This document shows, one piece after another, positions 6,645-55,934 of a stretch of 64,000 nucleotides of DNA. The position numbers and the translations under genes are program-made. How positions within the stretch are numbered: the stretch's first letter is position 1; each line of letters starts with the position of its first letter. Source of the stretch: a virus; IMG/VR virus record IMGVR_UViG_3300028653_000016, positions 1 to 64,000 of that record. One strand, 5' to 3'. A model generated the notes under the pieces. It searched no databases, was not told the origin of the DNA, and saw nothing but the letters and a program-made list of their open reading frames with translations.

Positions 6645-6673
6645 AGTATAATACAAATCTCTCTAATTTGCAA
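6645..6673 (-). promoter_or_regulatory. Promoter within the polA 3' end
   Basis: TTGCAA (6673-6668), a 17-base spacer, then TATACT (6650-6645) on the minus strand. The -35 lies in the last codons of the polymerase gene. It would start transcription of the zinc, mazG, deoxyribosyltransferase and primase group. Confidence 0.65.
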
Positions 6674-21417: not shown

Positions 21418-22407
21418 CTACCTCTTATTCTCCTGAATAGCCTTCCAAAGAGCCTCTTGAAGTTTTTCATCAGCCCTAAAAGCCTCAACAATTTTATCCT
21501 TACCCTTATAAGAAACTCCAGCATACTTATATGAAGGACCTGCTTGTTCAATGAATGAAAGGGTAAGGCCAAGATTAACTACTTCTTCCACTCGATCTAC
21601 TCCTGTTTCAAATCTAAGAGTAAATGTAGCCTTCTTACCTGGAGCAGCAACCTTATTCTTTACAACTGTTGCTTCTACTACATGACCGATTGGTTCTCCT
21701 TCAGCCCCTTTAATCTCTGATCCACTTACCTTCTTAACTGATAGACGCAAGGAACTATAAAACTTTAGGGCATTACCTCCAGGTGTCACCTCTTTAGGTC
21801 CATAAGGATTAAGACCATCTCTTACCTGATTAATAAAGAGAAGAATGGTATTTGTATCGCTCACCACTGGAACTAAACGTCTAAGAGCCTGACTTAGAAG
21901 CCTTGCCTGTGCTGCCATATTTTGCTGACCCAATTCGCCGTCTAGTTCACTCTGAGGTGTCAATCCTGCAACACTATCAACAACAATCATGCTCACTTGC
22001 TTTGTATTGGCAAGTTCTTCCACAATCTGCAAAGCTTGTTCTCCAGATTTAGGCTGAGTTAAAATTAAATCATCTGTATTAACCCCAAGCTTAGCTGCCC
22101 ATTCCAAGTCCAAACTATGCTCAACATCAATAAAGGCAGCTGTACCTCCAGCTTTCTGAGCTTCAGCAATAGAGAGAAGACTAAGTGTAGTTTTGCCTCC
22201 CGATGGTTTACCATAAATTTCTGCTATGGTCCCTTTAGGGAAACCACCACGGCCAAGAGCATGGTCAATTGAGTAAGATCCCGAACTAACAACCTCAACC
22301 TCTTTCATATCCATGTTCTTGATCTGAGAAACCACCGTCTCATGAACCTTTGAGATACGTTCAAGAGCCTTCTTTAAACTTTCCTTACCTTCATTCTCTT
22401 CACTCAT
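21418..22407 (-). CDS. recA: RecA recombinase
   Basis: 329 residues from the ATG at 22407, which has GAGGAG upstream. Walker A is GKPSGGKTT, then IDVEHSLDLEWAAKLGV, the Walker B region MIVVDSVAGLTP, the loop L1/L2 region with LGQQNMAAQARLLSQALRRL and FINQVRDGLNPYG, and TPGGNALKFYSSLRL. All core RecA motifs are present, with the Walker B pattern of a bacterial-type RecA and not of T4 UvsX. It pairs homologous DNA in phage recombination and replication restart. Confidence 0.93.
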   Translation of the reverse strand: MSEENEGKESLKKALERISKVHETVVSQIKNMDMKEVEVVSSGSYSIDHALGRGGFPKGTIAEIYGKPSGGKTTLSLLSIAEAQKAGGTAAFIDVEHSLDLEWAAKLGVNTDDLILTQPKSGEQALQIVEELANTKQVSMIVVDSVAGLTPQSELDGELGQQNMAAQARLLSQALRRLVPVVSDTNTILLFINQVRDGLNPYGPKEVTPGGNALKFYSSLRLSVKKVSGSEIKGAEGEPIGHVVEATVVKNKVAAPGKKATFTLRFETGVDRVEEVVNLGLTLSFIEQAGPSYKYAGVSYKGKDKIVEAFRADEKLQEALWKAIQENKR

Positions 22408-22408
22408 G

Positions 22409-22603
22409 TTATTTCTCCTCACTTATCTGTTTAATAACTTTTGCTGTAGAATATGTAATAGATACATCATGATAAACTTCATAGGTCTTACCACATTCCC
22501 CACATTCAAATTCTCCATCATCTATCTCAAACGAATCACGTTCTTCATGTCCACACCATGGGCATGTAATCAAGTCTGTATATGATGTATCGAATACTTT
22601 CAT
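22409..22603 (-). CDS. Zinc-ribbon protein, 64 aa
   Basis: Two CxxC pairs (CPWCGH and CGECG) separated by an acidic spacer form a classic zinc ribbon, followed by a beta-rich tail and a short helix. The start at 22603 has AGAGG four bases upstream; an ATG at 22615 inside the preceding gene is the alternative. It directly precedes recA. Function unknown. Confidence 0.65.
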   Translation of the reverse strand: MKVFDTSYTDLITCPWCGHEERDSFEIDDGEFECGECGKTYEVYHDVSITYSTAKVIKQISEEK

Positions 22604-28743: not shown

Positions 28744-29088
28744 TTATAAATCAAAATAAGACCAATCTTTCTTATTAAAAAATCTAACTATTCTAAAACC
28801 AAACCAATTATATCTATTCTTAAGAATGGGCAAAAGAATAGCAGCTCTCCCTTTGTCATAAGCTCCACTACTAGAAGACTGAACAATATTATTTAATTGA
28901 TTAATTATCCACTCAATTGTTTGTTTTTTCCATGGTTCCCAACCCCCGCTACTTTCATTAAATACATCGTCAAGAATATGTTGAAGATATCTTTTTTGAT
29001 CTTCCCATTTAGTTATTGAAAACACAAATAACGTGACAATACTAACAACTAAACTGCTCAGGTCAACACAAACATGGAAAAATTTCAT
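28744..29088 (-). CDS. Membrane-anchored hypothetical protein, 114 aa
   Basis: A hydrophobic N-terminal segment (LSSLVVSIVTLFVFSI, about residues 10-27) is followed by a soluble helical part with a Ser-rich stretch (IVQSSSSGAYDKG) and an aromatic, basic C-terminus. No family recognised. It overlaps the helicase gene by four bases and could act with it. Confidence 0.6.
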   Translation of the reverse strand: MKFFHVCVDLSSLVVSIVTLFVFSITKWEDQKRYLQHILDDVFNESSGGWEPWKKQTIEWIINQLNNIVQSSSSGAYDKGRAAILLPILKNRYNWFGFRIVRFFNKKDWSYFDL

Positions 29089-32000
29089 AGTAACCCATTC
29101 TCTTTCATAAATTTATCTCTGTATTCAATTGCTTCTTCTTTTGTTCTAAAATATTTTCTATGTGTTTTACCCTCAAGTGTAATGATAAAAGTATAGCTGT
29201 CATCATTTTTTCTATGCCCTAAATGATGCAACGGACTTTTTTCAATAGAAATCTTTCGTTGAAGTTCTCTATTAAAGCAACCACAAGACTTAGTATGCCC
29301 TCTAAGTAAAGATTGTTCATCAACTACTTTCTCAGTACCACAATCACATTTTACTCTATAAAGTATTGTATTATATTTGTTAAATCCCTCTCGATTTAAA
29401 ATAACAAGCTTTTCAAAACGTGTCCCAATCTCTAAACCATCAGATTTTCTAATACAACCACAAGATTGGGTGCCTCCACTCTCTAAAATGCTTCTACGAA
29501 CTATTTTTGTATTGCCACAGTCACATTTACATACCCAGGTATATTGTCCTTTTTCATCTATATTATTAAGTTTCTCTACCGTTAATCTTCCAAATACTTT
29601 CCCAATTAGATCTGTTTGTTTAAAAAATGTTTTGGTGGTAGGAAATTTTTGAAATGCTGAAAAAGAAGGATGCTTTCTAAAATTTAAAATCTGATAAAAA
29701 TGAGCCAAAAATCTCTCCTCAGAATTTGGGGAAATTTGACTTGGTAGATACTTATTAATTTCACAAAATTGTTCTAATTTCTTAAGATTAGAATTAAATA
29801 CAAAATCTCTTCGGGAAGGTATTTTACTAAAATATTCGAAATATTCTGGCTTTTCTGTACATATACTTTTTTGTAAAACAGCATGCATAAATTCTGCTAT
29901 TTCTTTTTCATCCTTTTTTCTACTATAAGGTCTATATCCGACCTTGTCACAAAATTCCTTAGCTTGTAGAAATTTTTCATTAAGTTCTAGATCAATAAGT
30001 CTTTTATAAGGAGCCATTTCCTGAGCAAAAATAGAGTCATATGATTTATTACTATCTGAATCAATTGTGTAATTAGTTAAAAGAACTGCTAATTGATATT
30101 CTTCTGTATCTTCAATATGTCTACTAGGTAGGTAATGCTGACCTTTATAAATATGCTTTGTGATCCAATCTCGTATACGTTGTTTATTACCATCTGAATT
30201 TTGGTATATACTTTCTCTCACCACAGTAAAAATCTTGTCTTCCATTGAAGGAATATAAGTTGAGATCTCCAAAATCTTCTCTTCCTTAGCCCCGCTTGAT
30301 CCTCTGCTGTCAGGTGTAACCTTTCTCTTGCCATCTCCTGTCTTCAAAGCATTAATCTCAGCCATCAACACTTCATCCACATCCTGGAGAGCATTCAGAA
30401 TAGCTTTCACATCTTTGAATACACTCTCATCAATCTCAGACTCCATAGTAGCAGTATCTTTGAAATAAACTGGAAGAAGAATAACTGCTTGCTTATCTGG
30501 ATTATTTTTGTCAATCCTCATAGCTCTACCAGCAGCTTGGACGATATCAATCTTAGATTTCTTAGGATCACAGAACATTACCAAATCAATATTAGGCACA
30601 TCAATGCCTTCTGTTAAGCAACGGGCATTAGTCATGATAGCATCTTGTGACGCTTTGAAGGTATTCATCGTCCCAAGACGTTCTGAAGCACTCTGCTCAC
30701 CATTCACATGCACAACTTGCCCACCAAAGCCTGAAATAGCTGCATGATCTTTCTGAAAGGCTTTAGCATTACTGATAGTACTATGAAATGTGATTGCATG
30801 TTTTGCATGATACTCAGCCATTACCTTATTCAAGGCAATGTGATTTGCAGCCGTTTCAAAATTCAATAAGCTACCATCTTTGGTATGCCCATAAGTCCTA
30901 TCTTTAATAAGCTTCTGCAAATCTTCATCTGTGAGCCCAGTAATAACAATCTTATAGGGAGCTAACAATTTAAGATCAATTGCTTGTCGGAAAGACATTT
31001 TATAGAAAGGCTTCCCATAAACCTTCTCATCTGCCATATCAAATACTTGAAAGCCTTTTAAAACTTGTGAAGTTTTCACTCCATCTTTATATACTTTCGG
31101 GGTAGCCGTTTGAAACAGTCTCTTACCCAAATTTAATTTAATATCTAATGGAAGTGTAAAAGCTCGCTTACTTTCTCCTACGGTCTTATGTGCCTCATCA
31201 AAAACTGTCAATCCAAAAGGAAGAGCTTTCTTACCTTTAACCAATTTCTCAAGAACATGAAAGCTTTGATAGGTACTATAAACAATTGCCTTGGGATTAT
31301 TCTTCAGAAAATCCTTCACTACTTTAACATCCGTAGTAACTCTGCTATCCACACTATGCAGCCGAATCTCAGCATCATCTTCAGATTTCTTATAAACCTT
31401 TGTACCATCCTCTGCCTCTTTGTCAATATCGTACTCAGAACAGATACACAGATAGGGAACTGATAAATCCTTACGATTAGCATTCCAAACATTCTTGGTC
31501 TGCTTCAAAAGACTCAAAGAAGGAACTAAAATTAAAGCCCTATCAAACTTACCTTCTTCATAGACCCACAAAGCCTCTAAACTCTTGCCCCAACCACATG
31601 GAACCAAAAGCTGCCCCTTATCCCCTTCCCTAAACCCCGCTAGGATAGCATTTAAGGCTTCTAGCTGGTCTGGCCTTGGCTTTTTAGGGGCTCGAACGAC
31701 TTCAGACACCTTTTCATCTAAAAGGGCTAAAATCTGCCCAAATACCTCAGTTTCAATTGTAGCTACAGTTTCAAAGCCTACAAACTCCCATTTATCAAAT
31801 TTCTCTGTATATTCAGATATCCCAGCAACATTTGTAAAGATAATCCGATAATCAGCCTTTTCTCCTTCAAGAAACAAATTACCAAGCTTATCCCCATTCC
31901 AATCTAGGGAACCTTGCTGATCCCTATGAAACTTACATTGAATAGCTGACAACTTCCCTTGAAAGTCTTCTAGGACTAAATCAATTCCATGATCCCCTTT

Positions 32001-32207
32001 ATCCCATAAACCAAGCTGTACCCGAATCTCTTGAGGGATTTCCTTGCTAAGCCATACATTCTTATATTGCCCAAGCACCTTATAATAAGCTTGGCAAAAT
32101 CTTTCAAATTCGTATCCATCCATTCCAGGAACATTTCCCTGTGGAAGTGTAGCTAAATAAGAATAGTACGAATCCCAAGTAGGTTCAATCTTAGTTAAAT
32201 TTTCCAT
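29085..32207 (-). CDS. Nuclease-helicase with C-terminal homing-endonuclease-type zinc fingers
   Basis: 1040 residues. About 1-170 form a PD-(D/E)xK nuclease-like domain (HGIDLVLEDF, AIQCKFH). The SF2 helicase follows: VPCGWGKSLEA, VFDEAHKT, TATP, GIDVPNIDLVMF and QAAGRAMR. Residues about 690-860 look like helicase-associated repeats. From residue 867 come two finger modules (KVFGRLTV, CKCDCG, QSCGC; then TRFEKLVI, VKCDCG, KSCGC) and an AP2-like end (YTFIITLEGKTH, FRTKEEAIEY). Such modules belong to HNH homing nucleases, so the tail looks like a gene fusion. The mRNA appears leaderless. A defence-like or DNA-processing role is possible. Confidence 0.78.
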   Translation of the reverse strand: MENLTKIEPTWDSYYSYLATLPQGNVPGMDGYEFERFCQAYYKVLGQYKNVWLSKEIPQEIRVQLGLWDKGDHGIDLVLEDFQGKLSAIQCKFHRDQQGSLDWNGDKLGNLFLEGEKADYRIIFTNVAGISEYTEKFDKWEFVGFETVATIETEVFGQILALLDEKVSEVVRAPKKPRPDQLEALNAILAGFREGDKGQLLVPCGWGKSLEALWVYEEGKFDRALILVPSLSLLKQTKNVWNANRKDLSVPYLCICSEYDIDKEAEDGTKVYKKSEDDAEIRLHSVDSRVTTDVKVVKDFLKNNPKAIVYSTYQSFHVLEKLVKGKKALPFGLTVFDEAHKTVGESKRAFTLPLDIKLNLGKRLFQTATPKVYKDGVKTSQVLKGFQVFDMADEKVYGKPFYKMSFRQAIDLKLLAPYKIVITGLTDEDLQKLIKDRTYGHTKDGSLLNFETAANHIALNKVMAEYHAKHAITFHSTISNAKAFQKDHAAISGFGGQVVHVNGEQSASERLGTMNTFKASQDAIMTNARCLTEGIDVPNIDLVMFCDPKKSKIDIVQAAGRAMRIDKNNPDKQAVILLPVYFKDTATMESEIDESVFKDVKAILNALQDVDEVLMAEINALKTGDGKRKVTPDSRGSSGAKEEKILEISTYIPSMEDKIFTVVRESIYQNSDGNKQRIRDWITKHIYKGQHYLPSRHIEDTEEYQLAVLLTNYTIDSDSNKSYDSIFAQEMAPYKRLIDLELNEKFLQAKEFCDKVGYRPYSRKKDEKEIAEFMHAVLQKSICTEKPEYFEYFSKIPSRRDFVFNSNLKKLEQFCEINKYLPSQISPNSEERFLAHFYQILNFRKHPSFSAFQKFPTTKTFFKQTDLIGKVFGRLTVEKLNNIDEKGQYTWVCKCDCGNTKIVRRSILESGGTQSCGCIRKSDGLEIGTRFEKLVILNREGFNKYNTILYRVKCDCGTEKVVDEQSLLRGHTKSCGCFNRELQRKISIEKSPLHHLGHRKNDDSYTFIITLEGKTHRKYFRTKEEAIEYRDKFMKENGLL

Positions 32208-32212
32208 ACTTC

Positions 32213-32241
32213 AGTATAACATACTTATCTAGTCTTGTCAA
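32213..32241 (-). promoter_or_regulatory. Promoter giving a leaderless helicase mRNA
   Basis: TTGACA (32241-32236), a 17-base spacer ending in TGT, and TATACT (32218-32213), preceded by AAATATCCC. Only five bases (GAAGT) separate the -10 from the ATG at 32207, so the transcript should begin at or near the start codon. Confidence 0.75.
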
Positions 32242-33407
32242 GGGATATTTTTCACCTCTAGGTAAGGAATAAAGGGTAGACACATCAATGTTGTCAAACC
32301 TGAAATAATAATCAACCCATTATACCCAAATAAAGCAAAACACTTTGCCCCTACTATATTTGAAAAGAAAGAAGCACAATTAACAAGTGAGCATAACAAA
32401 GCATAAGTTGTTGCTTCCGTTTTTTCTGGGCAAGTCATGGCCATGAGATTTAGCATAGTTAAATGAACAAATTGCGTAGCGATCCCAAAAATAATAGCAT
32501 ACCATAAAATCGTAGTAGGAGTTAAATACAAGTAAGCAAAAGTTCCAATTGCACTTATAAGTGTTCCATAGTATAACCAACGTTTCATATCAATATTTTT
32601 ACTCACTTTAAAGTATACTATAGCCCCCACAATTCCACAAGCAGATCCAATAGTATCTAACCAACCGATATACACTTTCGACATGTGCAGACCATTTAAC
32701 ATTTTATCTAGCAAAGGAGTTCCAAAAGAAGGACTAAACCAAAGGAAAAATAGAAATAAACTGCAAAGAAGAATCTGTTTATTTTTTAATTTTGCTAAAA
32801 AATCCTTAATTATAGGCCCAACTGCCTTTTTAGTCTTTTCAGATTTCACTTCAGGGTATCTAAGAGCCATTATAGCGATTAGAATAGGGAAAATAGCGAG
32901 AATTATATAAGCAAGATGGTAAGAAGCCTTTTCTGCGATATAACCTCCAGAAACGCCTGTAAGAACGCTTCCAACGCCTAAAGCAGCCCATGTCACAGAT
33001 TGAAAGCGGCCAGTTGTACCATCTTTATTACCTGCTTCAATTCCCATGCCATTTACAGCTACATTTCCACCTGCTTCCCCAATAGATCCAACAATCATTA
33101 AGCCAATTAAAACAGACAAGGAAATAAAAGGAGATACACCAATAACAAGAAATGCGAGAGTGCCTAAAATGGCAAATAAAACAACATAGCTTTTCCTACG
33201 GTAGCCAAAGATACTTATAGAATCACTAAGAATCCCCCACACTGGTTTTATCATCCAAGGTATATTGGCTAAAGCCCCAAGCATCATGATTTGGGATACC
33301 GAAATCCCAAGGGTCTCCCTTAAAAAACAAAAAAGAGGCAGAGAAGCAAGCCCTCCAATCCCCTGATTAAAAAATACGAGAATAGCTAAGACGTATAGAA
33401 AATTCAT
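32238..33407 (-). CDS. BT1-type folate/biopterin transporter-like MFS protein
   Basis: 389 residues with 11-12 membrane helices. The segment PWMIKPVWGILSDSISIFGYRRKSY is the signature of the BT1 folate-biopterin transporter family, a branch of the MFS. Loop charges and the central cytoplasmic loop (SEKTKKAVGPIIKDFLAKLK) fit a two-bundle MFS. It would import a pterin, folate or amino-acid-like substrate. I know of no standard phage role for BT1 proteins; folate supply for thymidylate synthesis is an attractive idea. The stop overlaps the next promoter's -35. Confidence 0.8.
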   Translation of the reverse strand: MNFLYVLAILVFFNQGIGGLASLPLFCFLRETLGISVSQIMMLGALANIPWMIKPVWGILSDSISIFGYRRKSYVVLFAILGTLAFLVIGVSPFISLSVLIGLMIVGSIGEAGGNVAVNGMGIEAGNKDGTTGRFQSVTWAALGVGSVLTGVSGGYIAEKASYHLAYIILAIFPILIAIMALRYPEVKSEKTKKAVGPIIKDFLAKLKNKQILLCSLFLFFLWFSPSFGTPLLDKMLNGLHMSKVYIGWLDTIGSACGIVGAIVYFKVSKNIDMKRWLYYGTLISAIGTFAYLYLTPTTILWYAIIFGIATQFVHLTMLNLMAMTCPEKTEATTYALLCSLVNCASFFSNIVGAKCFALFGYNGLIIISGLTTLMCLPFIPYLEVKNIP

Positions 33408-45891: not shown

Positions 45892-47766
45892 TTAATATTT
45901 GATAATATAATTAACACCTAATGAAGGTTGCACAATACTATGCGCTGCACCACCACCACCTACTGAAATACCTGTTGTTGCATTTGCTATGAAACCTGAA
46001 TTTCCAGCAGGTAAAAAGTTTCCAGCACCAGCTCCTGCGATAGTTGCAGTTCCATTACCTACAGTAGCTTTAGTACCTGTAGCTGAATCATTGTGATAAT
46101 GTCCTGGATCATTAACTGTTAGACCTGCTGGAATTTCTGAAACAGTTAATGTATGAGTATCAGATCCTACTGGAGTTGGCGAGAATGTAGGAGCAATACT
46201 ACCTCCTATACCAACAGGAACATTATTAACCATATTAGGAAGATTAAAGCTTGCCCCAGCTCCTCCATAATTATATCCAATGGTAGCAAACAAACTTGGA
46301 TAAGTAACCGTGGAAACGGATGCCCCATTAGCTAACAAAAATCCAAGGGGTGCCACTGATCCTGCAAAAGGCAACAATGAACCCGTTGGAACAGTACTAT
46401 TGGAAGAAGCAGTAACAACCTGTTGCCATGCCGTTCCATCCCAGTATTCAAAGGTATTTAATGTAATATTAAAACCGAATTCTCCTACGATTGGATTTAC
46501 AGGTCTTGCCGTGGTAATCCAACGTTGTAATAAACTGTTTGTACCTCCAATGAGTCTACGATCTATTAAATCTGAAAGAGGATTATTATTTGAGACAGGT
46601 GATCCAACATACGTATACGTAACAGTAGCAAGCCAAAGATACACAGGATTAGAAGAAATATCAGTTGTAGTAACTCCAAATGATCGTGTACTTGAATTCC
46701 AATATACATTATATACTCCTGTTGTATTTGGAAATGTCACTGTGACACTCAAAAGAGCCCCAAAAATATCACTAGCACTATAAGCTGCTCCATTTACAAT
46801 GGCATACTCAGGAATACCTCCATACGATGAAAGAGCATAAATTGTAAGAGTATCACTTCCAAAAGGCAACACATAATTAATATAAGAAGCCATGGCAGAA
46901 GAAACAGGATTAGGATTTGTAGTGATAATAACATTATTATTACCTTCAATCTGACTACGCCCCACCACAGTATCCAATGTGGATATCCCTAAATCAGCTA
47001 GAGACGTATTATGGGGATTAAAAGGACTAATCCCAGGACCAGTTCCGACTGCTTTGATATGATCTTCAAGTACCAGTCTCGTAGCAGGAGGGTAGGAAAC
47101 GGTTCTATCAGACAAATTTGCTAGGGGGGTGATTATTGGAACAATTTTAGGCAGAATTGCATAATAAGTTCTACCTACTTGGGAAATATTGGACGGAGCA
47201 ACAGCACCTCCACCTATCATATCTATAGACGCTAAGAAAATAGAATTAGCATCTGGAGGAACATTTGTTGTAGTGACTCGAATATTATATCCATCTATTT
47301 GTTTGAAGAAAATTTTTGCATCCGTAATTTCATTAGTAGTAAATGCTGACGTATCAATAGTAGGAAGATAATCGACCCAAAGATAATTTTGTGAAGTCTG
47401 AGTAAGAGGGATATTAACCACTCCAGTAGACTGTGGTGTAGGTAAGAAATTTCCGAGACCATCATTAGTTGTGCTTAAAGGATTTGAAGCATTATATAGA
47501 GTAGTATCGGAAGGAGAAATATATATCCTATTCCCAACGGAATCATAAGCTATCCCTCCTAAAGTCACATTCACAGAAGGAGTTAAACTAGTATTGTTAT
47601 TTCCAGGAACAACAAGGAATCCTTCACCTGAAGTAGTGGCATTATCTATACCTGCACTAAAGGTATCGGTAATAAGATTACTAGTCTTTGTTTGGTCACT
47701 TGTTTGCAACCATTGAAAAATAGCCGAAATTATTCTTTGCCCATTACTAAAAATTACTGAACTCAT
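45892..47766 (-). CDS. Tail fibre with tail-collar domain
   Basis: 624 residues, Ser/Thr/Asn-rich and beta-rich. The C-terminal part has VPTGSLLPFAGSVAPLGFLLANG, then a PNMVNNVPVG block and an end of the form VQPSLGVNYIIKY, the phage tail-collar (microcystin-dependent-protein-like) pattern. The N-terminus would attach to the baseplate. Long open plus-strand frames opposite this gene (such as 46310-46783) are shadows. Confidence 0.78.
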   Translation of the reverse strand: MSSVIFSNGQRIISAIFQWLQTSDQTKTSNLITDTFSAGIDNATTSGEGFLVVPGNNNTSLTPSVNVTLGGIAYDSVGNRIYISPSDTTLYNASNPLSTTNDGLGNFLPTPQSTGVVNIPLTQTSQNYLWVDYLPTIDTSAFTTNEITDAKIFFKQIDGYNIRVTTTNVPPDANSIFLASIDMIGGGAVAPSNISQVGRTYYAILPKIVPIITPLANLSDRTVSYPPATRLVLEDHIKAVGTGPGISPFNPHNTSLADLGISTLDTVVGRSQIEGNNNVIITTNPNPVSSAMASYINYVLPFGSDTLTIYALSSYGGIPEYAIVNGAAYSASDIFGALLSVTVTFPNTTGVYNVYWNSSTRSFGVTTTDISSNPVYLWLATVTYTYVGSPVSNNNPLSDLIDRRLIGGTNSLLQRWITTARPVNPIVGEFGFNITLNTFEYWDGTAWQQVVTASSNSTVPTGSLLPFAGSVAPLGFLLANGASVSTVTYPSLFATIGYNYGGAGASFNLPNMVNNVPVGIGGSIAPTFSPTPVGSDTHTLTVSEIPAGLTVNDPGHYHNDSATGTKATVGNGTATIAGAGAGNFLPAGNSGFIANATTGISVGGGGAAHSIVQPSLGVNYIIKY

Positions 47767-47777
47767 ATACGTCTCCT

Positions 47778-48920
47778 TTACTCAACTATTTTAAAATAAG
47801 TCTTAATATTTGCAGGGACCAACTGATTAACCAATTGTTCAACGACTGGAATTGTGACAGGTGCTAAATGGCTGCTTTGAATCGAAAATGAACCTGGCGT
47901 TGAATCAGATACAACCACACTATCTGATACTGATTGTGCTCGTGCTAATGACGTTGCATCAGAAAGTAAAACTGAGTCTACTAAAGTTATTTCATCTTCT
48001 TTAGTGGTTACATCACTAGAAGAAATAGAATCTGTTAATAATAAAGACAAAAGACCTGATGTTATTACACCAATGTTATTACCAGCATTTTCAGTAAACC
48101 ATAAATTCCCATCAGGACCTAAAGCAATATAAAGGGGTGTGCTATTAGGAGTGGGGACAGTATAATTAGTGGAAGTTCCAGATGTTGTAATTTTACCAAT
48201 ATTATTCCCACTAAGTTCAGTAAACCACAAGTTACCATCAGGTCCTGCACAAATATCATATGGAGAAGAAGAGACAGCATAATCAATTATAGTACCAGAT
48301 GTTGTAATTTTACCAATTTTTCCTACTTGATTTTCAGTAAACCACAAGTTACCATCAGGTCCTGCACAGATACTAATAGGTAAGGTATTACCAGGAAGAA
48401 TATTATATTCAGTTACACTACCCGATGTAGTCATTTTGGCAATATGATTTGCATTAGGTTCAGTAAACCATAAATTCCCATCAGGACCAGAACAGATGCC
48501 ATATGGATGACTACCACTAGGAATAGGATATTCTGTAATAACACCTAATGGTGTAATTTTACCAATTTTATTACCCAAGTATTCAGTAAACCATAAGTTA
48601 CCATCAGGTCCTAGACAAATACCATATGGTTGACTATTGGGAGTAGGAATAGCGTATTCTGTAATAACACCTAATGGTGTAATTTTACCAATATTATTCC
48701 CACTAAGTTCAGTAAACCATAAGTTACCATCAGGTCCTAGACAAATACCAACAGGAGCACTACTCATAAAAAGAGGGTATTCTGTAATAACACCAGCAGA
48801 GGTACATTTACCAATATTATTTGCATTTTCCTCTGTGAACCATAAGTTACCATCTGAACCTAGACAAATACCATATGGCCCAGCTCCCACTGTAGGAACA
48901 GGATATTCTGTAATAGACAT
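47778..48920 (-). CDS. Seven-bladed streptogramin-lyase-like beta-propeller tail protein
   Basis: 380 residues. Seven repeats of about 42 residues, each with DGNLWFTE, an NNIGKIT-like strand and a GVITEYP-like strand, make a complete propeller of the virginiamycin B lyase (Vgb) type. The His and Glu residues used by Vgb are not evident, so it is probably a binding module. The last 90 residues are a Ser/Asp/Val-rich linker and an end segment. It is encoded among tail fibres and may recognise the host surface. Confidence 0.75.
   Translation of the reverse strand: MSITEYPVPTVGAGPYGICLGSDGNLWFTEENANNIGKCTSAGVITEYPLFMSSAPVGICLGPDGNLWFTELSGNNIGKITPLGVITEYAIPTPNSQPYGICLGPDGNLWFTEYLGNKIGKITPLGVITEYPIPSGSHPYGICSGPDGNLWFTEPNANHIAKMTTSGSVTEYNILPGNTLPISICAGPDGNLWFTENQVGKIGKITTSGTIIDYAVSSSPYDICAGPDGNLWFTELSGNNIGKITTSGTSTNYTVPTPNSTPLYIALGPDGNLWFTENAGNNIGVITSGLLSLLLTDSISSSDVTTKEDEITLVDSVLLSDATSLARAQSVSDSVVVSDSTPGSFSIQSSHLAPVTIPVVEQLVNQLVPANIKTYFKIVE
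48065..48905 (-). repeat. Tandem 123-126-base repeats encoding propeller blades
   Basis: The DNA of the blades is itself repetitive, with a period of 126 bases between the clearest copies and 123 at one end. Seven units are present. High DNA similarity between units would allow gain or loss of blades by recombination. Confidence 0.75.
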
Positions 48921-49430: not shown

Positions 49431-51851
49431 TCAGTATAAGGGAAAATTTCCTGGATTTACAATAGTGATAAGTACTCCAAAAGCTAACGTAGAAGCATCC
49501 CAAAGTACAGGGATAGGCAATTGAGTTTCAGTATACTGCAATCTATAAGCTGTTATTACTTCAGTTGGACCTGCCCATAGTGAGGCTAATGTAAGATGGG
49601 TATTATCTGCAATTAATTCTATTGTACCTAAATAAATTCCATTTGGATCTGTAATCTGATCTCCAACTGAAAGGGATAAAAAGGATGTTCCACTACCTGT
49701 AACTGTAGCACTTCCATTTGTAAATGTTACAAATCCTGCTAAGGGTGTAGCCCCCTGTAAGGCATTGACTATCTTAATAGGACTACCTGTATCAAATATA
49801 GCTTGTAGGGTACTTGTTGTTGGAACAAGCATAGTCCAGTATCCTAATGCTCCATTTGTAGTATAGGTACTAGGTGGTACAAGAAGACCTGGAGTAATAC
49901 CACCAGCAGGAACAACTACTGTTCCAGCACTAGGGAATGCAACAGTTGTGCCAGAAGGACCATAAGTTAATGCTCTACCATGAAGAACACTGTTAGAGGC
50001 AAAGGTAATGGATGTTCCAGCAAGAATTGTTCCATTAACAGTGTCATTAGCCCCAAAGGTAAATGTTGTACCAGTTACAAAGTAAACATTATCCGCTGTA
50101 GCACCACCTGTTAGAACTACGTTACAATTAGCTCCCATTGTAAGAGCAGTACCAAAGAGGAACACATACGTTCCTGCACCATTAAGAGTGAGATTCCCTG
50201 TTGCTGTCCATGTTCCTGCTGCAATTGCACTATAAACACCTGGAGTTGCAACAAACCCATTTAAATCAGTAGAAGAAATATCTGTCCCAGGACCCATTGC
50301 TTGAAGAGCTATTGCTGCTGTGGTAGCATCTGTATGAGCTTGAGCTGCAGCTGAATCTCCACTATGCAATATACCTGTATATGTACCTGGAGGAAAACCA
50401 GTAATTGAAGTAGGAGCTACATTACCTAAATCTCCAGTTAAAATAGTAAACCCCGTATTTGCAACTCCAGTATCACCTAAGACGGCATAGGTAGCTGCTG
50501 TACCAAGGAGAGAAGGGGAAGCACTTGGAGTAATATTTTCTACGACTAAAGTATTATCAATAAAAGGAGAAGAAGTACGAAATACAGATTCTTCAATCGT
50601 ATCTCCTGCATACATACCTGCTGTTGAAGAAACAATTAGATGAGTGCTATCTTCCACATCTGTAATAGTAAAAGGAATAGAAGTAGTTGTATCTAAGGCA
50701 GAACCAGGAACCCAACCATTTTCTACCCTAGTAACAGTAAAAGAAATAGGGACGGTTGTATCTAATGCATTACCAGTAATCCACCCAGCTGTATTACCAA
50801 CAACTAAATGAGTACCATCTATTACTGAAGCAATAGTTGTAGTATTAGATCCTTGTACAATAGTATCCCCAGGACTCATGCCTGTAGTAGAGGAAACAAT
50901 TAAATGTGTTAAATCTACTGTAGAAGTTACTTCTAAATGAGTACCATCTATAACATTTATAATTGTAGTTGTATTAAGTGTTTGAGTTATTGGCCCATCT
51001 TGAGTTGTAGTTAAAACAAAATTATTTAAATCTCGTATATTTGTAATAACTGGGGGAACACCTGTAAAAGCTTGCACTGTTAAAATAACAGCTTCATTCG
51101 TTCCACCAACTAAAGAAGCCAAATACAAATTCATTAAAATCCAACGATAATCCACATACTGCATACTATTGGGCTTGGGGAAATTAAACATCACACCAAA
51201 ATTTTGGGCTAAATTCTCATCCACGCACATATCAACATAATTATCTGTCTGAGTAAGAAAATTAGCATAAAATACTTGATCCAACTGATTACCATACATA
51301 TCCTCAACAAGCCATAAATTTGTATTACGTTGGGATACAGGTTTAAGAAGATCCCCCTTCCCATATACATGATAATCGGGCAAAGATTCCATTAAAGCTT
51401 CTGCTGAAGATTGCTGTACACTTTGGGGAATAGTCCAAGTCAATGTGGATGACCAATCTGATATAAAAGAACCTGTATGAGTTCTCACTCTTGCATACCA
51501 AGTTTGAACTGTAGCATTAATACGAGCAGCAACAGGAACAGTGAGTCCTTTACGCACATTACCATTTTGAAAGGTAATTGGAGAAGGAAAACCGTATAGC
51601 CCAGATGAATTAAAAGTAACTAGATTTGGTGAATTGAATGTTGGAACAGTATCCAATTGTAAATCAAAATTTGCTGCAGCTAATGCAGGAGTAATAAAAG
51701 CAGGATCAAAGCCAAACCAGAATGTGTAAACCCCATCCTGGGATGTTCTATAGAAACGTAAATCTATAGGAATACCCTGAGCAGCCGTTGTGGTTGCACC
51801 AATGTAAAAACTTCCTGATCCGTAGAAAATTCCTGATCCGTAAAAACTCAT
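49431..51851 (-). CDS. Tail protein with embedded DUF3494 ice-binding-like domain
   Basis: 806 residues. An N-terminal part (about 1-270) is a baseplate or fibre attachment domain. Residues about 300-430 hold three or four short repeats of the form DGTHLVV...TAGM...GD, also found in the gpJ-like protein. Residues about 445-650 match DUF3494: AATYAVLGDTGVANTG, ILTGDLGN, GFPPGTYTG, LNGAGTYVF and a run of beta-solenoid-like strands (FTFGANDTVNGTILAG, NSVLHGRALTYG). DUF3494 is the microbial ice-binding fold, also used for adhesion. Probably a receptor-binding fibre. Confidence 0.7.
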   Translation of the reverse strand: MSFYGSGIFYGSGSFYIGATTTAAQGIPIDLRFYRTSQDGVYTFWFGFDPAFITPALAAANFDLQLDTVPTFNSPNLVTFNSSGLYGFPSPITFQNGNVRKGLTVPVAARINATVQTWYARVRTHTGSFISDWSSTLTWTIPQSVQQSSAEALMESLPDYHVYGKGDLLKPVSQRNTNLWLVEDMYGNQLDQVFYANFLTQTDNYVDMCVDENLAQNFGVMFNFPKPNSMQYVDYRWILMNLYLASLVGGTNEAVILTVQAFTGVPPVITNIRDLNNFVLTTTQDGPITQTLNTTTIINVIDGTHLEVTSTVDLTHLIVSSTTGMSPGDTIVQGSNTTTIASVIDGTHLVVGNTAGWITGNALDTTVPISFTVTRVENGWVPGSALDTTTSIPFTITDVEDSTHLIVSSTAGMYAGDTIEESVFRTSSPFIDNTLVVENITPSASPSLLGTAATYAVLGDTGVANTGFTILTGDLGNVAPTSITGFPPGTYTGILHSGDSAAAQAHTDATTAAIALQAMGPGTDISSTDLNGFVATPGVYSAIAAGTWTATGNLTLNGAGTYVFLFGTALTMGANCNVVLTGGATADNVYFVTGTTFTFGANDTVNGTILAGTSITFASNSVLHGRALTYGPSGTTVAFPSAGTVVVPAGGITPGLLVPPSTYTTNGALGYWTMLVPTTSTLQAIFDTGSPIKIVNALQGATPLAGFVTFTNGSATVTGSGTSFLSLSVGDQITDPNGIYLGTIELIADNTHLTLASLWAGPTEVITAYRLQYTETQLPIPVLWDASTLAFGVLITIVNPGNFPLY

Positions 51852-51864
51852 TGTTATTTACCTT

Positions 51865-53772
51865 TTATGATAACTTTTCAATTACAATATAAATTGAATA
51901 AAATGATGTATTAAAAAATCCAGTGTTTGTAGTAGAATATCTAATTGGATTTCCTGAAGTCGATTCAATAACAAATGTTGAACTAGTAAAACCTAATACG
52001 GCTAAGGATAAGGCAGAAGTAGATGCGGTTTCCAATTGAGCATCATCAGTCCATTCCATATTTGCTGTTACAGTACCTGCTGTAACATCAGCTGTAGTAG
52101 TTGCTAAATAAACAGATGCTCTATATACTCCTGTTGAAGCAGGTGTAAAAAGTGTCACAGGACCTAAATCTGTATTTTGTCCAGGCAAAGAAACATGTGC
52201 TACAATGCTTGGTGAAACATTTCCATTAGATATAGCTGTAATCAGACCTTTACCATTAGTTGTTACAGTAGCATTTGTAAAAGTACCTACATCTGTATTT
52301 ACAGTAGCTAATGTAGCAACTTCAACACCCCCAGAACCAGCAGGAACAATAATACCATTATCTGCTAAAGTTACAGAACCTGTAAGAGCAAGTAAACGAC
52401 CAGTAACAGATGCCCCTGTATTAGCTGTAATACTTGCTGTAGCAATAATAGTTCCAACAAATGCTGTTGTGGTTCCTAATGTAGCTGAAGTTCCCATAAG
52501 CCAATAAACATTATTTGCACTTCCCCCATTTATAATAATAGCAGAGGAAGAACTAGCTGTAGTTAATGCACTACCAACTTGAAATACCCATTGAGCATTG
52601 GGATCTCCACCTGCATCTAAGGTAAGTGTCCCTGTTAATTGAGCAGTTGAAGTAAATTTATAAACTCCAGGAACTAGGGAGGGTACTACCCCTCCTGTAC
52701 CCAAAACTTGACCTGTCAAATCCATTGTAAACGGAAGAGCAGCTAACGTTGTGTAAGCTGAAGAAGCATCCGTTTGCGCTTGAAGTGCAAAACTATTTGC
52801 AATTTGTTCAGTACCTGAAAATGTACCAGGAGGAAATCCTACAATTGAAGTACCTGGATTTAAACCGAGATCTCCAGTCAATACTGAAGAACCTGTATTC
52901 GTTACTGTAGTGGCACCTAAAACTGCATATGTAGCTGATGTTAAAAGAACAGGATTAGAAGAACTAGTTGTCACGTCACCAGTTAAAGCAGTAATACCTG
53001 TTCCACCTCCAGCAGCATTAATTGTAATAGCTTGACCAACTTGATTTAAAGTAATATTTGTACCAGAAACAAGTTGTACATTTGCTGTTAGATCAGGACT
53101 ACTATCTGCATGAAGTGACTTTACAGCAGCTGTAGATGACACTGTAGCAATAGCAGAACCAGGACCTGTTGCTGTTACCTCACCTGTTAAAGCAGTTATA
53201 CCAGATCCAGTAATACTATTTATCTGAGTTTGAATATCTGATGTAACTCCATGTACATACCCTAATTCCGTTACAGTAGTAGCTGAGGAAATCAAATACC
53301 CAGATGCATCAGTTACTGGAACAATAGAAGTATTCAATGGTTGAAGATTTGTTCTAGGAAGAATTACAGAACCATTAATACTAGAAGTGGTAACAATACC
53401 AGAAGATAAAGAACCATCAGCATTTAAAGCAATCCCAACGGGAATTTGAAGTTCATTAATATCCTCTGCTGCAATTTCAGAACCTAGTCCAGTATAAGAT
53501 ACTGAGACAACATTTCCATTTTGAGAAGCATCAAATGTAATGACCCCAGTAGCATAATCAACAAAGAATTGAACCCCTGTTGGAGAAGGAGTTATAATTT
53601 CATTATAACCAGGAATAGTAACAGCGGGAGCTGGGCCTTGAGGAACTTCAACTAACCGAATTACATTTGGGGCAACTGTAAATACCCCTACGATTCCTAT
53701 AGTATGGCTTTCTCCAGAAATTGGAGATCCGATAAGTCTTTCATTTACTTTTGATTTATATGCTATGCTCAT
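51865..53772 (-). CDS. Tail fibre with DUF3494 ice-binding-like domain
   Basis: 635 residues. A beta-rich N-terminus (about 1-270, with ALTGEVTATGPG-type repeats) leads to a DUF3494 domain at about 274-477: TSATYAVLGATTVTNTG, VLTGDLGLNPG, GFPPGTFSG, LDAGGDPNAQWVFQ and NVYWLMGTSATLG. The C-terminus looks like a small trimeric tip. It is a second, diverged copy of the domain in the neighbouring gene. Confidence 0.7.
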   Translation of the reverse strand: MSIAYKSKVNERLIGSPISGESHTIGIVGVFTVAPNVIRLVEVPQGPAPAVTIPGYNEIITPSPTGVQFFVDYATGVITFDASQNGNVVSVSYTGLGSEIAAEDINELQIPVGIALNADGSLSSGIVTTSSINGSVILPRTNLQPLNTSIVPVTDASGYLISSATTVTELGYVHGVTSDIQTQINSITGSGITALTGEVTATGPGSAIATVSSTAAVKSLHADSSPDLTANVQLVSGTNITLNQVGQAITINAAGGGTGITALTGDVTTSSSNPVLLTSATYAVLGATTVTNTGSSVLTGDLGLNPGTSIVGFPPGTFSGTEQIANSFALQAQTDASSAYTTLAALPFTMDLTGQVLGTGGVVPSLVPGVYKFTSTAQLTGTLTLDAGGDPNAQWVFQVGSALTTASSSSAIIINGGSANNVYWLMGTSATLGTTTAFVGTIIATASITANTGASVTGRLLALTGSVTLADNGIIVPAGSGGVEVATLATVNTDVGTFTNATVTTNGKGLITAISNGNVSPSIVAHVSLPGQNTDLGPVTLFTPASTGVYRASVYLATTTADVTAGTVTANMEWTDDAQLETASTSALSLAVLGFTSSTFVIESTSGNPIRYSTTNTGFFNTSFYSIYIVIEKLS

Positions 53773-53776
53773 ATTA

Positions 53777-55447
53777 TTATCCTTCTACTGTTATAATGGG
53801 GGGATTTGCAATGGGATATGCTTCATTTCCAACAGAAATCTGTTGCCCAGGTGGGATTGTAGTTGTTACAACCCCTTCTGTACTCTGTAAAAGCAAACTA
53901 CTCAAATCAACTTCTGAAACTCCAGGCACGTCTTGGGCAATGGCAACCAATTCACTTAGAACAAGATTTGCTCCAAGACCAAGAGAATTTATATAAGTAG
54001 AAAGTGCTGTCTGCACATTTGTTACAACCGTAGCTGGCACATAACCTGGGACTATAAAAATACCCATACTTACTGAAATAAAGGCTTCAATAGCTTCCAC
54101 CACAAGAATATCTGACCCTACAATATGATTTGAATTATTATCTAAAAGAGCTTGCAGAGTAGCAATCAAACTATCATAAGTATAATTAACTGTAACCACT
54201 GTATTATTATCTGGTTTAAATCCAGAAAATGTTGCACTTCCTGCGCCAAAACCCGCTGTATTACCAACAACAATATGTGTGCTATCAATCACAGTAGTAA
54301 TAGTAGTTGAGAAAGTTCCTTGTATGATTGCATTCCCAGGATTCATGCCACTTGTAGTATTCACAACCAAATGAGTACCATCAGTAACAAGTGTAATATT
54401 AAAATAGGTAGAAACATTGAAATTAATATAACTAGCTGCCTCAGTACTACCTGCAAACAGGAGATTCGGATTTAATACAAATTGATAATCTGTTCCAGCT
54501 ACAAATGTGTAAGGAACCCCTCCAACAATACCTGTAACAGAGCCTACTGATAGAGCTGGCTGATTCAATAGAACATATTGCTGACTTCCAGTTGCTGAAT
54601 AAGTAAAAGTTTCTGCTGTAATAGTGACAGGGAATTGACCACGAATATAAACATTAGTACTTCCACCATATTGATTACGTAATGGAGGATTAGGATCATT
54701 AGGGCCAACGATGAGAGCTTGAATAACATTTGGATTTGTTTCCATAAGGGAAATAATTCCATTAGGAGTGCCAACATTATTACCTTCAAGCTTAATCTGA
54801 ATACGAGCAGCAAATTGAACGTTAGATTCAATATTCGTTCCACCACTGGTTACAGTTTGATTTGTTACAGCATCAATGCCAAGACCAGGGCCAACAAGAG
54901 AGACAATAGTATTTGCTCCAACATTACCAACCGTTCCAATTGTTTGACTTATAATTCCTACAGTTTGCTCATAAAAGCCACTTACTGGATTGTAATAAGC
55001 AGGAGCATTTGAAGGAGTAAAAGTTACTGTAGCTGTTGTCGCAAAGGAAACTGCAGGTGCTGCTGAGGTAGACAAAGTAGAAACAGTTGTACCTGAAGGA
55101 ACAGTAATAATAGGAGAGGAAGTTGTATAATTACGAATTCTTAAAGTGATAAATCCGATTGACTGAGTACCTGGATTTCTTGTCATGCCATAGTTATTAG
55201 CAATGGCATCCATATCTGCTGGAAGAATAGTGGCAGCATTTGTAACAAAGGCTTGAAGATTTTGCGTATATTGAAGAGACGAATATACAGAAGGATCTGT
55301 GCCATTCTGTGCCGATAATTGGTTAGCAACAGTTGATACAACTACATCCGAAACAACTGTTCCTGGAGTAGTTGCGATATCGGGCCTTGATATCTGCAAG
55401 AATGACAGCATTGATTGGACGATTTGTGAAAATGTTGGAAGAGCCAT
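53777..55447 (-). CDS. Baseplate protein, gpJ/gp47-like
   Basis: 556 residues from the ATG at 55447 (AAGGAT upstream). The N-terminus (PDIATTPGTVVSDVV, then YGMTRNPGTQSIG) and the middle (VGNVGANTIV, EGNNVGTPNGI) match baseplate J-like proteins, which build the wedge of contractile tails. Residues about 345-410 contain the DGTHLVV repeats shared with the fibre at 49431-51851. The end has QDVPGVSEVDLSSLLL, typical of the C-terminal gpJ domain. Confidence 0.82.
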   Translation of the reverse strand: MALPTFSQIVQSMLSFLQISRPDIATTPGTVVSDVVVSTVANQLSAQNGTDPSVYSSLQYTQNLQAFVTNAATILPADMDAIANNYGMTRNPGTQSIGFITLRIRNYTTSSPIITVPSGTTVSTLSTSAAPAVSFATTATVTFTPSNAPAYYNPVSGFYEQTVGIISQTIGTVGNVGANTIVSLVGPGLGIDAVTNQTVTSGGTNIESNVQFAARIQIKLEGNNVGTPNGIISLMETNPNVIQALIVGPNDPNPPLRNQYGGSTNVYIRGQFPVTITAETFTYSATGSQQYVLLNQPALSVGSVTGIVGGVPYTFVAGTDYQFVLNPNLLFAGSTEAASYINFNVSTYFNITLVTDGTHLVVNTTSGMNPGNAIIQGTFSTTITTVIDSTHIVVGNTAGFGAGSATFSGFKPDNNTVVTVNYTYDSLIATLQALLDNNSNHIVGSDILVVEAIEAFISVSMGIFIVPGYVPATVVTNVQTALSTYINSLGLGANLVLSELVAIAQDVPGVSEVDLSSLLLQSTEGVVTTTIPPGQQISVGNEAYPIANPPIITVEG

Positions 55448-55457
55448 AATGATATCC

Positions 55458-55934
55458 TTAGATGTTACCGATTTGAACGCCTGTCGTAATTTCTTGCCCA
55501 CTAGCTGCAATAACTGTGAGAAGGGCTGCTATATTTGTTTCACTCTGAAGTGATACATTTAACGAATAGAGTGTTTGTACAATCTCTGCTGGATTAGATC
55601 TATTTTGTGTAAGTAAATATAAAATTTGCAATGCCTGAGTAATTTGCTGTTGCACAGTTCCTGAAATTGTTGCTGGATTCATTCTGTTACCAATTAATGA
55701 CTGAAGTGTAGTACCATAGAGAGGGAACAATGTAATAGGCGTTCCTTGTTCAGTTAACAGAATCTTCTGAACATCTTGAACTGTCTCTTGTAATCCAGAT
55801 ACCAGAACAAAATCATTATTCGAACCAATAACTAAGTCATTAGTCTGCTCTCCAAAAAACGGACCAGCAACCTGCTGAGGTGGATACTCAGGTTGACCTG
55901 GGACTGGAATTGTTATTAATTGCAAATCGCTCAT
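55458..55934 (-). CDS. Baseplate wedge protein, gp25/gpW-like
   Basis: 158 residues. The block DFVLVSGLQETVQDVQKILLTEQGTPITLFPLYGT followed by LIGNRMN is the gp25-type lysozyme-fold wedge protein. It lies just upstream of the gpJ-like gene, the standard order in contractile tails. It joins the sheath base to the wedge. Confidence 0.78.
   Translation of the reverse strand: MSDLQLITIPVPGQPEYPPQQVAGPFFGEQTNDLVIGSNNDFVLVSGLQETVQDVQKILLTEQGTPITLFPLYGTTLQSLIGNRMNPATISGTVQQQITQALQILYLLTQNRSNPAEIVQTLYSLNVSLQSETNIAALLTVIAASGQEITTGVQIGNI

Follow-up and report, generated by a model that had tools for sequence, protein, structure and literature searches.

Why would a phage build a domain of microbial ice-binding proteins into its tail? 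The question is raised by the window analysed here, bases 1–64000 of the 70,394-base IMG/VR record IMGVR_UViG_3300028653_000016, in which two adjacent open reading frames (ORFs) on the reverse strand each encode an Ice_binding domain (PF11999, DUF3494). The first, p1 (49431–51851), is an 806-aa protein of the tail/baseplate region, and the second, p2 (51865–53772), is a tail protein of 635 aa that probably serves as a fibre or connects one, and it is located directly downstream of the baseplate J gene. The reading we favour, with a probability of roughly 55%, is that DUF3494 is here a mobile decoration domain spread across sheath, fibre-like and baseplate-region proteins, and that it likely serves multivalent adsorption of the virion to ice.

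With a curated cut-off of 28.7 bits, the PF11999 profile matched p1 at 49965–50483 (residues 457–629, reverse strand) with 110.5 bits and E = 1.1e-31, and p2 at 52351–52923 (residues 284–474, reverse strand) with 179.7 bits and E = 7.8e-53, bearing out the original prediction of two adjacent tail proteins with DUF3494 domains in both ORFs as described. The motif blocks of the microbial ice-binding family on which that prediction was built are all present, namely TYAVLGDTGVANTG, TGDLG, GFPPGT and YVFLFG in p1, and TYAVLGATTVTNTG, TGDLG, GFPPGT and WVFQVG in p2. A phmmer comparison with PDB sequences matched both proteins to the solved DUF3494 ice-binding protein 6eio (p1, E = 7e-24; p2, E = 8e-42). 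Structure prediction covered the p1 domain and a sheath domain described below, and the p2 domain was assigned by sequence. The beta-solenoid that had been proposed is present in the AlphaFold2 model of p1, where the predicted local distance difference test score (pLDDT) of the domain was about 67–90 and mostly 78 or more, and Foldseek matched it to 7bwx (template modelling (TM) score 0.88 of target) and 6eio (E = 3e-13). No PHROG family covers the DUF3494 domain of p1 or p2, the PHROG matches being confined to the flanks: residues 705–777 of p1 match phrog_17834 and residues 706–772 match phrog_9922, a minor tail protein. The same distal region also matches the distal tail protein gp20 (23gd_B) by phmmer against PDB sequences. 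The N-terminal ~290 residues of p1 are conserved, and the DUF3494 domain and a second small repeat are inserted in the C-terminal half; in p2, the N-terminal ~120 residues are conserved among relatives and the remainder is variable. Profile matches place both proteins among tail genes, with baseplate J upstream and a collar/fibre protein downstream.

The fold and the tail location thus stand as proposed, and the restriction to two proteins does not, since the tail sheath and, in related phages, other proteins carry the domain as well. The sheath copy was missed earlier because it lies beyond the window. It belongs to a 754-aa ORF on the reverse strand (record C1:65032-67296, equal to L004 5033-7297) that matches phrog_2839 with E = 5.7e-37, and its DUF3494 domain (C1:66223-66777, reverse strand, residues 174–358) scores 190.6 bits with PF11999 (E = 3.5e-56). 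The PF17482 profile gave this protein only 18.3 bits against a cut-off of 26.9, and for the sheath part of the fold Foldseek found the sheath proteins 3lml and phi812 (E = 3–5e-4), ranked below the ice-binding matches. L046 encodes the identical protein, and in its AlphaFold2 model the domain has a pLDDT mostly above 90 and matches 7bwx (TM score 0.92 of target, 43% identity) and 6eio (0.86, 45%); the model of the whole sheath was poor, with a predicted TM score (pTM) of 0.38 and low confidence over much of the sheath. Because sheath profile and fold matches and PF11999 meet in one ORF, we read it as an antifreeze-type domain inserted in the N-terminal half of the outer-cylinder protein of a contractile tail, and of the three copies this is the most telling.

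Relatives of baseplate J, p2, the sheath and p1 were gathered from the IMG/VR viral contigs (viral_contigs); the counts come from related sequences and fragments, some of them near-identical across re-assembled samples, and are descriptive. The domain is present at the equivalent sheath site in 11 of 18 relatives and absent from the other seven, which are 559–664 aa long. The sheaths of L057 and L058 hold a different insert near the DUF3494 insertion site, and those of L050-L053 and L059 a third small domain at another position. Behind the 290-aa N-terminus, the C-terminal half of p1 relatives carries zero (L073, L077), one or two copies (L070, L075), and p2 relatives likewise carry zero (L008, L073, L077), one or two (L028/L009). 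Where sheath and p1 are both visible, the domain is found in both (six records) or in neither (two records, one with p1 truncated by the end of the locus). Long records of the group hold three (G001), four (G007) or five (G005) copies, and other long records of 61–193 kb hold none (G009, G012, G015, G016). Presence and absence at one site, in several classes of virion protein, is the pattern of promiscuous decoration that Ig-like (immunoglobulin-like) domains display, and, judged by sequence, DUF3494 is here a mobile virion module that sits in the sheath, in fibre-like and baseplate-region proteins and, among related phages, in others too.

A second small mobile beta domain, recognised in sequence by the repeats DGTHLVVxxTxGM, occupies 50583–50984 of p1 (reverse strand, about residues 290–423). 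This domain of ~65 aa, with the pattern VTDGTHLVVSSTTGM..GDTI.QG..TTTI..V, recurs in p1, in baseplate J (53777–55510), in the L050-L053/L059 sheaths and in two further proteins near the sheath (L004 7450-9217). The DGTHLVV repeats of p1, whose beta strands were modelled fairly confidently by AlphaFold2, are absent from p1 of L071-L073, L077 and L075 and partly present in L068-L070.

The DUF3494 domains split into a W-type (..NVYWQVGSSATLG..) and an F-type (..NVYFVTGTTFTFG..), and type and slot do not agree: p2 of this phage is W-type and that of several relatives F-type, p1 of L069 is W-type and other p1 proteins, including the one studied here, F-type, and the sheath of L057 is F-type. A maximum-likelihood tree was built from 42 domains in four slots (sheath, p1, p2 and proteins of roughly 315 aa, the last group being defined by length alone), with the groups named before the tree was made. 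The split between types was strongly supported and many inner branches were weakly supported. A single clade per slot was rejected by the approximately unbiased test for the sheath (p = 9e-56), p1 (p = 8e-45), p2 (p = 1e-7) and the ~315-aa set (p = 7e-43), and the copies have therefore moved between virion genes. To follow the domain beyond this group, viral_contigs was scanned with the domain alignment, and the best 80 of 207 matching stretches were analysed. Among these, many DUF3494-bearing proteins of unrelated contigs have no PHROG match, and a baseplate protein resembling that of this phage was seen in only one of 12 such records. Three unrelated contigs (L107, L112 and L142), from phages without a close relative of this baseplate J, encode giant baseplate-J-like proteins of 2,583, 2,589 and 2,621 aa that match phrog_6 (baseplate wedge, E = 5e-30 to 1.5e-24) and carry one or two DUF3494 domains each. 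A tblastn search of 50,697 phage records with p1, p2 and the p2 domain returned nothing, an absence that is not proof, as the low-complexity filter may hide Thr/Ala-rich domains. Searching PF11999 directly in Tunturi_5, Bacillus phage G, S-SKS1 and LR745208 also gave no match.

In the ice-binding protein AnpIBP (7bwx), to which the domain matched best by fold, the ice-binding site is the B-face, where the substitutions S153Y and T156Y reduce activity to 17% (PMC7277481). The seven B-face segments given there were mapped onto the domain alignment for 40 phage domains. Thr accounts for 47% and Ser for 23% of the outward B-face residues, with Thr/Ser/Ala/Gly together reaching 92% and bulky residues 1%, compared with 14% Thr and 28% bulky in the remainder of the same domains, 20% Thr on the neighbouring exposed face (outward residues assigned by eye from model strands) and 12–15% Thr outside the DUF3494 domains of the same proteins. 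On the B-face of cellular DUF3494 domains Thr makes up 26%, and in two reference ice-binding proteins 22% and 30%; the enrichment in the phage copies has a p value of 7e-14, which is descriptive as the sequences are related. Despite their exposure, the outward B-face columns vary less than the other positions of the domain (entropy 0.95 versus 1.16). Nearly all phage copies have Ser/Thr at the equivalent of AnpIBP S153 and Thr at that of T156, and the segment S153-S-A-T-L-G158 is identical in the sheath of this phage (SSATLG), TSATLG in p2 and TTFTFG in p1. The complete set of p2 segments reads TSIV, TTVTNT, GSVTLA, ASITAN, TSATLG, SALTTA and STAQLT. By alignment, the phage copies thus have the flat face of small and hydroxyl residues found in active ice-binding proteins, Ser153 and Thr156 included. 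Pairwise dN/dS (the ratio of nonsynonymous to synonymous substitution rates) of the domain is 0.11–0.28, and the domain is therefore under purifying selection. As far as the alignment can tell, the B-face of the phage copies is kept and sharpened relative to cellular DUF3494.

Since the ice-binding face is conserved and Thr-rich, holding virions on ice, one of the uses put forward in the original prediction, stays the leading one, with the binding itself a deduction from that face. The domain is probably a promiscuous adhesion domain of the virion surface, and its many copies probably bind ice still. Its insertion sites also accept other domains or stay empty, and from them it would project from the sheath and the tail tip; the finished tail would be decorated in several places, and in many copies should the sheath copy point outwards. 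Many weak ice contacts could then sum to firm adsorption of the virion during freezing, either on the surface of ice crystals or at the boundary between ice and water. When soil or water freezes, cells and particles are pushed into liquid veins beside the ice. Adsorbed virions might be retained in the unfrozen veins where cells concentrate, or the tail might be shielded from ice recrystallisation, and these placing and protecting versions are inseparable by sequence. The stronger proposition, that some contractile-tailed phages coat much of the tail, sheath included, with functional antifreeze-type domains and that ice, an abiotic surface, is a specific ligand of the virion, which would serve to reach the ice-liquid interface at which hosts assemble or to outlast freezing, we hold tentatively, at somewhat short of even odds.

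Several points weigh against adsorption to ice. We infer the display of the domain on the virion surface and its copy number, and that the sheath insert points outwards once the tail has assembled is likewise presumed, the model of the whole protein having reached a pTM of 0.38. A flat Thr-rich face could have some other ordered surface as its ligand. Some of the IMG samples may come from peatland, soil or permafrost, and exposure of the phages to ice is a presumption. The gene comparisons pointed to no one host group, and the 70-kb linear record is probably a fragment and hence incomplete. Another use proposed at the outset, recognition of a host that displays the same domain, found no support: nothing ties these phages to a DUF3494-bearing host, and the attempts at host identification gave none.

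The main rival retains everything except the ligand. Under it, the domain would be a general surface adhesin for host polysaccharide, peat or soil polymers or mineral surfaces, its ice binding lost or never used. The placement pattern is that of phage Ig-like domains in fibre, baseplate, tail tube and capsid, for which adhesion-like roles are suspected (PMC9022992); the other inserts that these proteins hold (the DGTHLVV domain and the L057/L058 insert at the sheath site) and the distal-tail/minor-tail-like region of p1 point the same way. However, a B-face richer in Thr than those of cellular DUF3494 domains and active reference ice-binding proteins is an ice-binding trend, and we consider a general adhesin unlikely. 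To our knowledge, no polysaccharide-binding DUF3494 protein has been described.

The same conserved ice-binding face would equally suit an anti-freezing virion part, which would lessen recrystallisation around the particle and keep infectivity over freeze-thaw with no placing role. Many copies would increase local inhibition of recrystallisation, and cryoprotection readings of phage PF11999 genes have been published, though for host cells (PMC11515562). This explanation is hard to tell apart from adsorption to ice, but a soluble secreted protein would be simpler, and a place inside fibre and baseplate proteins speaks for binding over bulk inhibition; we regard it as improbable. A neutral passenger is more doubtful still. 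Recombination among Thr-rich beta-structural genes could spread a functionless, well-folded domain that is tolerated at exposed loops, and the mosaic structure, the several different inserted domains and the slot swaps fit such a process, but the dN/dS of 0.11–0.28, the lower entropy of the B-face columns (0.95 versus 1.16) and the long records with several copies at once or none speak against it and leave it very little room. An auxiliary gene protecting the infected host cell from freezing, as PF11999 genes of three viral operational taxonomic units (vOTUs) are annotated (auxiliary metabolic genes) in PMC11515562, is hardly credible for a domain that lies in frame inside sheath and tail proteins, which enter virions.

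Three candidates were also rejected. All three domains of the record lie in frame in large tail-module proteins and none in a stand-alone host-cryoprotection protein; chance similarity of motifs was dismissed; and a misassembled host antifreeze gene was set aside, the domains being in frame in tail genes of many independent contigs.

Together with p1 and p2, this part of the window encodes a sheath-initiator-like protein, baseplate J, a small tail protein, a Vgb-lyase-like propeller and a collar protein. The sheath-initiator-like protein near p2 matches PF10934 just below its cut-off. Baseplate J, or wedge protein (53777–55510, reverse strand; PF04865, E = 1.6e-17; phrog_6, E = 4e-31), is the marker of the tail module and carries no DUF3494 domain in this phage; no relative of it was found in genome_contigs. 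The tail collar/fibre protein (45892–47766, reverse strand; PF07484, E = 1.3e-14; phrog_9116 tail protein, E = 4e-15) stands at the end of the module. Next to it, the Vgb-lyase-like beta-propeller (47778–48920, reverse strand; PF24684, E = 1.4e-103) ends in ~20 residues, LVNQLVPANIKTYFKIVE, which match in alignment the C-termini of p1 relatives L070-L072 and L075. Because of this shared peptide, the virginiamycin-B-lyase-like propeller is probably a further decorated virion surface protein and not a resistance enzyme. Between tail genes, a GIY-YIG-type ORF and a possible HNH-type ORF (L004 9219-9815 and 3510-4403), judged by eye, are probable homing endonucleases.

Elsewhere in the window, positions 6663–9221 encode a family-A DNA polymerase (PF00476, residues 463–835) fused to a uracil-DNA-glycosylase-family domain (PF03167, residues 24–168), and positions 29085–32207 a helicase of 1,040 aa whose N-terminal part is an Mrr-like nuclease domain (PF13156, PF04851, PF00271). 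RecA is encoded at 21418–22422 (TIGR02012 just above cut-off), with at most about 48% identity to anything matched, and a major facilitator superfamily (MFS) transporter of the folate/biopterin BT1 family, unusual for a phage, at 32238–33407 (PF03092, E = 4e-38). A host search through the matches of the MFS transporter and RecA indicated no single group in either case.

Phage PF11999 genes are already known as host-protecting auxiliary genes, and no description of DUF3494 as a virion or tail-structural domain was found in the literature searched, which leaves many journals uncovered. Where receptor-binding domains from extracellular contractile injection systems have been catalogued, ice binding comes up only within a reference (PMC12923769). 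Promiscuous virion-surface domains are known and their ligands are mostly unclear, and here the fold predicts one unusual ligand, ice. If this is true, phages would use a structural protein, and not an auxiliary host gene, to position themselves or to last where it freezes, and the PF11999 "auxiliary metabolic genes" of polar viromes should be examined again for fusions to virion proteins. A natural comparison set is formed by related phages that carry the domain (for example in metagenomes 3300037184, 3300005542, 3300044797 and 3300028800) and others that lack it (3300036766, 3300020123 and 3300036760).

Among known systems, the type 1 (DUF3494) ice-binding proteins EfcIBP (6eio), AnpIBP (7bwx/7bwy), FfIBP and ColIBP resemble the phage domains in sequence, in the Thr/Ser-rich B-face with the same segment pattern and, by prediction, in the irregular six-coil beta-solenoid with its long flanking helix. 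The known proteins are secreted or on the cell surface, whereas the phage copies lie inside structural proteins, several per genome. Arctic marine vOTUs carry genes of the same Pfam family in viral contigs, interpreted as host cryoprotection in PMC11515562, the excerpted text of which does not take up a virion location; for S-SKS1, a viral homologue named in that paper, we obtained no PF11999 match over threshold. The DUF3494 proteins of Hyperionvirus, a tailless giant virus, are 261–623 aa long (A0A3G5A745, A0A3G5ACG7 and A0A3G5AEI1 in BFVD), and among viral proteins A0A3G5A745 comes nearest in structure to the sheath domain, at 45% identity. The nearest parallel in behaviour is provided by the phage Ig-like domains (Big_1, Big_2, I-set and FN3), which are known from proteins of the tail tube, fibre, baseplate and capsid with unsettled roles and which are likewise promiscuous, present or absent at the same site, spread over several virion protein classes and suspected of binding (PMC9022992). 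Ig-like domains are exposed in high copy number (PMC9022992), as DUF3494 presumably is here. Their fold is unrelated to that of DUF3494, which in contrast suggests a ligand, ice, and which additionally makes use of the tail sheath.

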